From NCBI RefSeq assembly GCF_004138135.1, contig NZ_RYFD01000043.1, positions 1-39,037 on the forward strand: 39,037 bases of DNA, in the 5' to 3' direction. Made by a program: the position numbers and the translations under genes. The DNA comes from Candidatus Oscillochloris fontis. Its GTDB lineage: Bacteria > Chloroflexota > Chloroflexia > Chloroflexales > Chloroflexaceae. The notes under the pieces were generated by a model that ran no database searches, was not told where the DNA came from, and worked only from the letters and a program-made list of their open reading frames with translations. Positions 19,155 to 39,037 of this stretch are shown in pieces (position 1 is the first letter of the stretch; the number at the start of each line of letters is the position of its first letter).

Positions 19155-20228
19155 ATGTACTACAAAGACCATATTCTGAACCTGCCGGCCTATAAGTCGG
19201 CGACGTTGCTGGCCGGGCCATCGGCGGAGTTGGTAAAGCTCTCCTCGAACGAAAATCCGCTCGGTCCTTCGCCCTTGGCTCTTACGGCGCTGAGTGAGGC
19301 GCTACACGGCATTCACCGCTACCCCGATGCGGGGGCGACGGCGCTGCGCCACGCGCTGGCTGCCCGCGATGGCCTGGAGCCGAGCCAGGTGACCTGCTCG
19401 AACGGCTCGGATGAGATGATTCTGTTGCTCTGTTTGGGGATGCTTAATCCGGGTGACGAGGCGGTGATGGCGGAGGGTACCTTCATCAGTTACCTGTTGC
19501 GCACGCTGGAACTGGGCGGGCGGGCGGTGCGGGTGCCGCTGCGCAACTACACCCATGATCTGGAGGCCATGGCGGCGGCGATCACCGAGCGCACCCGGCT
19601 GGTCTTTGTGTGTAACCCCAACAACCCCACCGGGACGAGTAACGGGGCGGAGGATCTGCGCACCTTTTTGGCGCGGGTGCCCGACGATGTGCTGGTGGTG
19701 GTGGACGAAGCCTATATTGAATTTGTCGAGCGCCCGGATTACCCCGATCTGCTGACGGAGTTGCGCGCCGGGCGGCCCAACCTGATCCTGTTGCGCACCT
19801 TCGCCAAGATCTATGGGCTGGCCGGGCTGCGGTTGGGGTATGCCTATGGCGCACCGGAGCTGATCAGCTACCTGGATCGGGTGCGCCCGACCTTCAATGT
19901 CAACCTCTTAGCCCAAGTCGCGGGACTTGCGGCGATCAACGATACCGCGCATGTGCGTCGCTCCCGCGAACATGCCAGTGCCAGCCGCGCCTTCTACATG
20001 CGCGAACTGAGTGCGCTGGGACTCACACCCATTCCAAGCGAAACCAACTTTGTAGCCTTCCCCATCCCTGGTGATGATGTCGCCATGGGCGAGGCACTAC
20101 GCCAGCGGGGCTATACCGTCACCACGCTAGCCGGTTGGGGGTTGTCGGGGCATATTCGCATCTCCTTTGGAACCGAAGAGCAGAATCAAGGGATGATCGC
20201 GGCCCTGCGTGATGCGCTGCATGCCTAA
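19155..20228 (+). CDS. hisC: Histidinol-phosphate aminotransferase
   Basis: 357 aa PLP enzyme that converts imidazole-acetol phosphate and glutamate to histidinol phosphate. Seen: the N-terminal KLSSNENPLGPSPLA, then HRYPDAGATALRHALA, CNPNNPTGTS, and VVVDEAYIEFV with the PLP-contacting Asp and Tyr. The Schiff-base Lys is in RTFAKIYGLAGLRLGY (near 217), and the terminal Arg is in GHIRISFGT. It starts 4 nt after the kinase gene. Some HisC-like proteins act on aromatic amino acids. It stands apart from other his genes in this operon, so that alternative remains open. Confidence 0.88.
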   Translation: MYYKDHILNLPAYKSATLLAGPSAELVKLSSNENPLGPSPLALTALSEALHGIHRYPDAGATALRHALAARDGLEPSQVTCSNGSDEMILLLCLGMLNPGDEAVMAEGTFISYLLRTLELGGRAVRVPLRNYTHDLEAMAAAITERTRLVFVCNPNNPTGTSNGAEDLRTFLARVPDDVLVVVDEAYIEFVERPDYPDLLTELRAGRPNLILLRTFAKIYGLAGLRLGYAYGAPELISYLDRVRPTFNVNLLAQVAGLAAINDTAHVRRSREHASASRAFYMRELSALGLTPIPSETNFVAFPIPGDDVAMGEALRQRGYTVTTLAGWGLSGHIRISFGTEEQNQGMIAALRDALHA

Positions 20229-20240
20229 CCCACGCCATGC

Positions 20241-20389
20241 GTAACTGTTCATACTTGGGGTAAACAAAGACTTTGATTGACGCCAAGGCGCAAAGACGCA
20301 AAGGTTTTGATGGGGGCATATCTTGAAGGCTTTGCGCCTTGGCGTCTTTGCGTCAAAACCGAAATGCTAGGGGAAGTGTGGACAGTTAC
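20241..20389. mobile_element. Miniature inverted-repeat element, copy A, IS66-like ends
   Basis: 149 bp. The left end GTAACTGTTCATACTT and the complement of the right end, GTAACTGTCCACACTT, match at 14 of 16 positions. The 8-bp sequence CGCCATGC is duplicated exactly on both sides (20233-20240 and 20390-20397). GTAA termini with 8-bp duplications are the hallmark of the IS66 family. The inside is a long imperfect palindrome built from GACGCAAAG/GGCGCAAAG motifs, with no coding capacity. The insertion separated hisC from the next gene, and its right duplication contains that gene's start codon. Confidence 0.88.
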
Positions 20390-20393
20390 CGCC

Positions 20394-21218
20394 ATGCCTA
20401 CGCAACACTGCCCGTCATGTGGTGCGCCCAACCCGGCCACCCATCGCTACTGTAGCCAATGTGGCGCGGCGCTCCCGCCTAGAGGCGGCCGCCCGCCATG
20501 GCTCATCCTGCTCGGCATGAGCAGCTTGGCGCTGGTCGGGCTGCTGCTCGCCTGCGCCGGCTTGTTGATCCTGGGGTTGCGCAGTAACCTGGCGAGTAAT
20601 CTGATATTGGGCACGGCCATCCCGCCGACGGTGATGGTGCTGCCGACTCAGCCCGCGCCTAGCAATCCGAGCCATACCGTCTTTGTCTATGACGACTTTA
20701 CTGATCCGGCGCTGAGTGTGCTGAGTGCGGAAGAAGATACCACCTCACGCACCGCCTTTGTCGAAGGTAGTTACGTTTTTGAAGTGAAGGAACGTGAAAC
20801 CCTGGCCTGGGCGATCACCGAGGATGCCTATGATGATCTGGTGGTTGAGGTGGCCAGTGAGACCCCGCCCGACTCGCAGGTGGTGGCGGCGGGGCTGATC
20901 TTCCACTACCAAGACGCGCGCAACTTCTACCTCTTCAGTGTCGCCAACGATGGCTATTATGCGTTGGAGTTACTCAAGGATGATACGTGGCAAACCTTGA
21001 TTGACTGGACGCAGTCGGAGATGATCCATCCGCGCTACAATACACTGCGTGTGGAGACCAAAGCTGAACGGATCACGCTGAAGGTCAATGGCTCGTTACT
21101 CGAAATGACCGAGGACAACGCACTCGCTGGTGGTACCACGGGGGTCGCGGTGAGTAGCTTCGAGCATGGCCCGGTCATGATCCGCTTCGATAACCTACTG
21201 ATCACCAGGAGTCCCTAA
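20394..21218 (+). CDS. Zinc-ribbon membrane protein with extracellular beta-sandwich-like domain
   Basis: 274 aa. The N-terminal zinc ribbon has CPSCGAPN and YCSQCGAAL (four Cys, residues 5-25). A membrane helix follows at about 37-62, then a Pro-rich linker. The 170-residue external domain (from VYDDFTDPALSVL) looks like a laminin-G/3-keto-disaccharide-hydrolase-type jelly roll: GLIFHYQDARNFYLFSV, then TLRVETKAERITLKVNG. ATG 20394 lies in the transposon's right target duplication. Before insertion the gene began 8 nt after hisC. No ribosome site is now within range (GGGGAAG is 17 nt away), so translation may be weak. Its TAA overlaps the next ATG (TAATG). Confidence 0.75.
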   Translation: MPTQHCPSCGAPNPATHRYCSQCGAALPPRGGRPPWLILLGMSSLALVGLLLACAGLLILGLRSNLASNLILGTAIPPTVMVLPTQPAPSNPSHTVFVYDDFTDPALSVLSAEEDTTSRTAFVEGSYVFEVKERETLAWAITEDAYDDLVVEVASETPPDSQVVAAGLIFHYQDARNFYLFSVANDGYYALELLKDDTWQTLIDWTQSEMIHPRYNTLRVETKAERITLKVNGSLLEMTEDNALAGGTTGVAVSSFEHGPVMIRFDNLLITRSP

Positions 21219-30550: not shown

Positions 30551-30566
30551 CGGCTATAACCTCAAA

Positions 30567-30642
30567 TTGACGCAAAGGCGCGAAGACGCAAAGGGTGCAT
30601 TGTGTCACTCTGTTGAAGGCTTTGCGTCTTGGCACCAGAATT
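30567..30642. repeat. Decayed relative of the miniature element, copy B
   Basis: Contains TTGACGCAAAGGCGCGAAGA and TTGAAGGCTTTGCGTCTTGG, the interior of the miniature elements at 20241 and 32333, but neither GTAACTG terminus. It has no coding content and fills most of the gap between lysZ and the lipoprotein gene. Confidence 0.75.
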
Positions 30643-32332: not shown

Positions 32333-32473
32333 GTAACTGTTCACAGTTCTCCTAGCATCCCAGTTTTGACGCAAAGACGCAAAGGCGCAAAGCCTTCAAG
32401 GATATGCCCCCTCAAAACCTTTGCGCCTTTGCGTCAACCAGAGGTTTCTTTTACCCCAAGTGTGAACAGTTAC
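32333..32473. mobile_element. Miniature inverted-repeat element, copy C, IS66-like ends
   Basis: 141 bp. The left end GTAACTGTTCACA and the complement of the right end, GTAACTGTTCACACTTGG, match over 13 bp. The flanking 8-mers ACCGCTGC (32325-32332) and ACCACTGC (32474-32481) differ by one base, a slightly decayed target duplication. The interior is the reverse complement of copy A at 20241, including the GACGCAAAG palindrome and GGCATATC-CTTGAAGG segment. It has no coding capacity. Confidence 0.88.
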
Positions 32474-38948: not shown

Positions 38949-39037
38949 GTAACTGTTCACTAGTCCGTAAATTAAGACCTCTTGTGTTCTATCGCCACGT
39001 CACTTAGACTGGTGGCATGAAAAAACAGCACCTCACC
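38949..39037 (+). mobile_element. Left end of an insertion sequence or related element, cut by the window edge
   Basis: GTAACTGTTCAC at 38949-38960 is identical to the terminal repeat of the miniature elements at 20241 and 32333, but the sequence after it (TAGTCCGTAAATTAAG) differs. An ATG at 39017 begins a frame reading MKKQHLT before the window ends, which may be a transposase gene. If so, this could be the autonomous partner of the miniature elements. The right end is outside the window. Confidence 0.5.
39017..39037 (+). CDS. Possible start of a mobile-element gene, only 7 codons visible
   Basis: ATG with the codons for KKQHLT and no stop before the window edge. No ribosome site is clear. 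It is listed because it lies inside a putative insertion sequence end; identity cannot be judged from seven residues. Confidence 0.25.

Follow-up and report, generated by a model that had tools for sequence, protein, structure and literature searches.

In the 39,037-nucleotide stretch of Candidatus Oscillochloris fontis DNA analyzed here (the window; contig NZ_RYFD01000043.1), a hisC-like aminotransferase gene and a downstream gene for a zinc-ribbon membrane protein are separated by a short gene-less element, and the target duplication that borders this element carries the start codon of the downstream gene. The account proposed here, which we hold to be highly probable as a whole, is that the element is an IS66-type miniature inverted-repeat transposable element (MITE) moved in trans, that about half of the readable copies of its family keep a register of 14 bp from the -35 box of promoter-like sequences, and that RNA polymerase would guide the choice of target; the copy beside hisC is an exception to that rule, and it probably broke a translational coupling between the two genes.

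The element between hisC and the zinc-ribbon gene

An original prediction, made from the letters of this DNA, placed a 149-bp element between exact 8-bp repeats, each containing an ATG. Direct reading and a repeat search confirmed the element and its exact direct repeats (CGCCATGC, 20233-20240 and 20390-20397), with the ATGs at 20237 and 20394 (Table 1). When the flanks were joined in a script, with the element and one repeat removed, the hisC stop lay 8 nt from the ATG (junction TAA-CCCACGCC-ATG), the distance that had been predicted; the further claim that the insertion separated two co-directional genes and kept the ATG through the duplication is supported as well. The terminal inverted repeats are imperfect (16 nt, 88% complementary in the repeat search), and the element holds no transposase gene; the open frame that crosses it merely extends the downstream zinc-ribbon gene. 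No Rfam family was found in the element.

Table 1. Coordinates of the features at the hisC/zinc-ribbon junction and of the second MITE copy in the window.
Feature	Position	Strand	Basis
hisC-like aminotransferase gene, TAA stop at 20226-20228	19155..20228	+	Pfam Aminotran_1_2, 5e-58
Left copy of the 8-bp target duplication, ATG at 20237	20233..20240		Direct reading, repeat search
Mini-ORF (MRNCSYLG-stop) opened by the duplicated ATG	20237..20263	+	
149-bp MITE with IS66-type ends, GGGG end at 20241	20241..20389	+	
Left terminal inverted repeat	20241..20256	+	23/24 outermost nt equal to the end of the L122 IS66 element
Internal palindrome, left arm	20277..20303		27 nt, 85% complementary to 20330-20356
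Internal palindrome, right arm	20330..20356		Repeat search
Reading frame open across the element and continuous with that of the zinc-ribbon gene; ATG codons at 20310 (preceded by AAAGG) and 20364	20310..20393	+	
Right terminal inverted repeat	20374..20389	-	Repeat search; comparison with IS66 element ends
Right copy of the 8-bp duplication; ATG 20394 is the start of the zinc-ribbon gene	20390..20397		
Zinc-ribbon membrane protein gene	20394..21218	+	Pfam Zn_Ribbon_1, 2e-7
Second MITE copy in the window, duplication 7/8, no promoter at the register	32333..32473	-	

The MITE family and its IS66 kinship

The element beside hisC, a non-autonomous miniature element of IS66 type, belongs together with its sister copies to a large MITE family in the host genome. 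Its recurrence there exceeds chance: searched against the host genome, it gave 64 matches at E<=0.001, some of them the palindromic core read on the opposite strand, and the terminal pattern had 91+75 exact matches as against 0+1 for the reversed control. Among the fetched loci (66 of the 166 terminal-repeat matches lay outside those listed and hence fetched by this route), at least 68 distinct insertions combine terminal repeats with a duplication of at least 7/8, and in 55 of these, as at the copy beside hisC, the duplication is 8/8; the insertion counts refer to copies duplicated to at least 7/8. MITE-like sequence in the flank set 19 of the 68 apart and left 49 non-nested insertions. Tandem copies that share a base, odd for an element that duplicates 8 bp, turned out to be insertions of copy into copy with their own duplications. 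In L059, L067, L070 and L101, for example, the inner and outer copy each have their own duplication where readable, and the inner one has in most cases entered the core of the outer copy at its TTGACG. Since this core (TTGACGCAAAGGCGCAAAGACGCAAAG with its complement) also stands without IS66 ends in several relatives and in the window near 30566-30633, the MITE seems to be an older interspersed palindrome enclosed by IS66 ends.

IS66 elements are defined by GTAA ends and an 8-bp target duplication, and only part of the family carries the accessory genes tnpA and tnpB. An element of this kind with the ends of the MITE was found in a genome other than the host, an Oscillochloris MAG (G010), where it spans 1439 bp (L122:1369-2807) between ends GTAACTGTTCACACTTGGGGTAAA and GTAAGTGTTCACACTTCTCCTAG, both of which match the MITE ends in the right order. 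A sister copy (L044:4201-4349) is identical to it in 24/24 and 21/21 end nucleotides, and the window copy in 23/24 and 20/23. The ends of this candidate parent begin with GTAA (GTAACTGTTCACACTT / GTAAGTGTTCACACTT), and its 454-residue protein (P0001) matches DDE_Tnp_IS66 (PF03050) at E 8.2e-48 and zf-IS66 at 7e-6, just under the cut-off of that model. The IS66 label of the original prediction was therefore right in substance as far as the ends are concerned. The element is without tnpA and tnpB; on its tnpC strand only one frame stays open for 150 codons or more. An 8-bp duplication is absent at this copy and at the relative in G062, complete (8/8) at a broken relative in G018, and present at the MITE copies.

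DDE_Tnp_IS66 was detected in 17 of the 41 genomes of the family (host included). In the host genome itself a profile search found no PF03050, the model having matched in 4 of 14 control genomes, and a tnpC search at E<=1e-40 returned no match there. Phages gave no match, and plasmids only IS66 proteins of <60% identity. The MITE would have been mobilized in trans by an IS66 transposase of the tnpC-only type that can no longer be detected in the host assembly; the lack of a co-resident transposase in these searches counts against this account. Four places with DDE_Tnp_1 in the host were considered as an autonomous partner and rejected, all being without matching ends on both sides. The contig end at 38949-39037 was likewise rejected as the left end of a partner; it is another IS inserted beside a terminal-repeat copy. 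That IS is itself multi-copy (77 bp shared, with a frame starting MKKQHLT) and occupies 13 contig-end places, in 3 of which, the window included, it directly follows the terminal repeat of a MITE (GTAACTGTTCAC or a close variant of it). A separate set of IS66-type elements (L127, L128 and L139) has GTATCCGTTCAGG ends, one of them a variant, and duplications of 9 bp rather than 8 bp.

Placement of the host copies relative to promoters

Alignment of the flanks of the host copies revealed conserved columns on one side only. Outward from the GGGG end, the 8-bp duplication is followed by 6 bases and then by TTGAC(A), 17 bp and (TG)nTATAAT, which is a sigma70-type promoter by the familiar consensus; its -35 box starts at a distance of 14 bp, and the promoter is directed away from the element. 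Among the 49 non-nested insertions, 21 reach at least 8/12 consensus matches at offset 14 of this flank and 16 reach at least 9/12, against a single insertion at either threshold in the opposite flank. Offset 13 yields 7 and 2, offset 15 yields 3 and 2, and the other offsets between 0 and 44 at most 3 and 1. The background over 242,506 positions is 0.0030 per position at >=8/12 and 0.00047 at >=9/12, and a binomial estimate for 16/49 is 2e-41 if independence is assumed; no two flanks are duplicates, the highest pairwise identity being 0.60 over 52 nt. A matrix built from the same genome recovered 24/49 at the GGGG end when each insertion was left out in turn and 0/49 at the other. With 25/49 insertions reaching 7/12, base-exact placement relative to promoter-like sequences holds for about half of the copies, and about half are off-rule.

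The register promoters, as predicted from sequence, look real. Ten open frames downstream of them were compared with Pfam; six have families (SSB, IF-3, S1 domain, glycosyltransferase 2, ABC ATPase and MMR_HSR1 GTPase) and four have none. A further downstream frame is one that we take, by eye, to be ribosomal protein L28-like. The genes concerned include ssb, infC and a tRNA-Ser gene, and in the last case (L064) 16 nt separate the -10 box from the tRNA 5' end as placed by ARAGORN.

Such a distribution might in principle arise if insertion were random and selection had kept the copies upstream of promoters, where they are harmless or raise expression. An insertion just 5' of a core promoter should indeed be tolerated, and MITEs are usually intergenic according to a review (PMC10969869). 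Survival of this kind would be expected to leave a broad zone of insertions, however, rather than a base-exact offset of 14 that holds 16/49 copies at >=9/12 when its two neighbors hold 2 each and the other flank 1, and it does not readily account for the single orientation in the host genome. A base-exact register with a preferred orientation is hard to obtain by survival alone, which argues for target choice, and random insertion followed by selection is thus very unlikely.

What the transposase would recognize is a different matter. It could recognize the DNA directly, mainly through a TTGAC lying 15-19 bp beyond the element, so that promoters would be struck merely as carriers of this motif. 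Most of the flank information does lie in the -35 columns (0.5-0.8 bits at bases 15-18, as against 0.2-0.4 at bases 35-43). Moreover, copies inserted into other copies use the TTGACG of the palindromic core: 12 of the 19 copies with MITE-like sequence in a flank have a -35 match of at least 5/6, and 9 of these 12 have a -10 match of 2/6 or less, so that the -35 hexamer may be enough by itself and a polymerase may be dispensable. On the other hand, enrichment at the proper spacing extends to the -10 hexamer and its preceding TG, 5/49 copies combine a weak -35 with a strong -10 (3+5 or 3+6 matches), and a reach of about 43 bp would be easier for a bound polymerase. We regard direct reading of the DNA as a serious alternative, though a somewhat improbable one, and guidance by promoter-bound polymerase is the interpretation carried forward here.

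The window copy itself does not obey the rule. Its GGGG flank reads AGGCAT-18-CCGCGA, 1/12 matches with a matrix score of -3.8, and the second copy in the window is off-rule too. Because the window copy breaks the promoter rule, its duplication of a start codon looks incidental.

The register in other genomes and in full-length relatives

Six genomes from three other genera provided 43 insertions with duplications, 41 of which could be oriented (2 were dropped). At offset 14 from the GGGG end, 13/41 reach at least 8/12 and 11/41 at least 9/12, with at most 3 and 2 at other offsets; at offset 14 from the other end, the numbers are 7/41 and 5/41. The matrix trained on the host found 13/41 and 5/41 at the two ends in the exact register and 0-2 at every other shift tried, on a background of 0.0047 per position. 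Counted at either end, the matches are distributed as 6/13 in G018, 7/10 in G053, 3/10 in G054, 1/4 in G051, 1/3 in G023 and 0/1 in G024. The promoter is faced by both ends in G053 (3/10 and 4/10), whereas in the host genome it is faced by one end only. That the same register recurs in other genera is a further point against random insertion.

Thirteen distinct tnpC-related loci were collected, and the ends were examined in all of them but L313. Three of the four closest full-length relatives (at least 58% identity) have a promoter in the exact register at the GGGG end: TTGGCG-18-TATAAT in G010 (10/12), TTGCCA-17-GACAAT in G062 (9/12) and TTGACA-17-CATACT in G018 (10/12), the last with a perfect duplication and a broken transposase gene. 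The fourth, in G020, is visible at one end only, and no promoter was found there. A locus from a Ktedonobacteria MAG (L309) is ambiguous, with 10/12 at one of four end placements, and no promoter was found at the register in L299, L300, L303, L305, L308, L310 or L312. Of five Chloroflexota IS66 elements whose ends differ, 0/5 show the register, which leaves a rule general to all IS66 unsupported. Since three of the four closest relatives fit and the elements with other ends and most of the distant tnpC loci do not, the promoter rule seems to be limited to one IS66 clade.

Translation at the hisC/zinc-ribbon junction

The original prediction held that the insertion had left the zinc-ribbon gene without a nearby ribosome site, and in this it was not borne out. 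In the joined sequence there is no anti-Shine-Dalgarno pairing upstream of the ATG to be lost, the best value being +0.9 kcal/mol; at present a weak GGAAG (-6.6 kcal/mol) stands 14 nt ahead of the gene's ATG. The pre-insertion ATG lay 8 nt past the hisC stop and lacked such pairing, which suggests re-initiation, and the zinc-ribbon start was thus probably coupled to hisC, so that coupling rather than a Shine-Dalgarno sequence would have been lost. The insertion would have broken this stop-to-start coupling, and the first ATG past the hisC stop is now the one that opens the 8-codon mini-ORF, with its end at 20263. It is possible that an N-terminally extended zinc-ribbon product is made from the in-frame ATG at 20310, since an AAAGG precedes it (-3.8 kcal/mol, gap 3). 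A consensus scan of 19900-20600, the element included, found no promoter- or terminator-like site. The RNA of the element region is predicted to fold stably (z -2.8), as the palindrome alone would lead one to expect.

Relatives of the zinc-ribbon protein occur in 40 of the 41 genomes searched, many of them matching over part of the protein only, and the order hisC - zinc-ribbon gene is conserved in 4 of 5 same-genus relatives. In L020, L023 and L024 of the same genus, the protein also starts four residues ahead of the first CPxCG, and the zinc-ribbon start codon is therefore plausibly the ancestral one. The gap between the genes is 54 nt in L024 and 80 nt in L020, and hisC there is only 67-74% identical, so that the junctions cannot be aligned and speak neither for nor against the predicted empty site, which a search with the zinc-ribbon protein in 40 relatives did not verify. 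The junction in L020, L022 and L026 carries other short repeats (CTGCAATCTGCAATC, GCAATCCACAATCC and GGGGACTGAAGTCCCC), as if it were prone to them.

It might still be argued that the insertion targets or exploits the start codon and cost the gene its ribosome site, and the duplicated 8-mer does contain a start codon. Across the family, however, the columns of the duplicated 8 bp are nearly flat, with no start-codon consensus and an ATG on either strand in 16/68; the start was without a Shine-Dalgarno sequence before the insertion as well, and where the gap is 8 nt, chance alone will frequently bring an 8-bp duplication onto the start. Start-codon targeting is accordingly very improbable, and the event at hisC is better viewed as an off-rule insertion of a promoter-associated family.

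Discussion

Transcription usually starts about 7 nt past the -10 box. Counted from a start so placed, the duplication would occupy about -49 to -42, the zone of the polymerase alpha-CTD and of UP elements. A complex of transposase and transposon ends could therefore be guided to promoters, most likely by bound RNA polymerase, and cut at about -49/-42 relative to the transcription start, within the alpha-CTD/UP region, which would leave the core promoter, and hence often an essential gene, intact. Stated in full, a Chloroflexota IS66 clade would select its targets through promoter-bound sigma70 RNA polymerase and insert at about -49/-42, with a single orientation in some hosts, and this could have let its MITEs spread beside essential genes with the promoters spared. 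We consider the case for this more specific proposal to be evenly balanced on the present comparison of genomes.

If the proposal is true, a promoter-reading transposon clade would provide a direct and testable link between transcription and transposition, and it would explain how a large MITE family is tolerated beside ssb, infC and tRNA genes. Such MITEs could also serve as natural promoter markers in uncultured Chloroflexota. Target choice by bacterial insertion sequences has mostly been described as random or as governed by short sequences or structures, and in the open-licence literature, subscription journals lying mostly outside its scope, we recognized no report of an IS66 element or a MITE inserted at a fixed distance from promoters.

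Several known systems resemble the family in part. MITEAba12 (PMC6382973) and the Correia elements (PMC10969869) are likewise short and gene-less, with terminal repeats, duplications, many copies and a parent inferred through shared ends, but the promoters described for them lie inside the element and point outward, whereas in the present family the promoter is a target outside the element and none was found inside the window copy. The tnpC-only type of IS66 shares the GTAA ends, the 8-bp duplication and, in the full-length relative, the DDE_Tnp_IS66 transposase; the window element differs from it in having no gene, and the family in its base-exact placement upstream of promoter-like sequences. 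In yeast, the Ty3 and Ty1 retrotransposons integrate at RNA polymerase III promoters. The present family is an unrelated bacterial DNA transposon, but it would work in a similar way in that a fixed place upstream of the transcription start is occupied and the gene is spared, in one copy upstream of a tRNA gene. If RNA polymerase is indeed the guide, these elements would be a bacterial counterpart of polymerase-guided retrotransposon integration.
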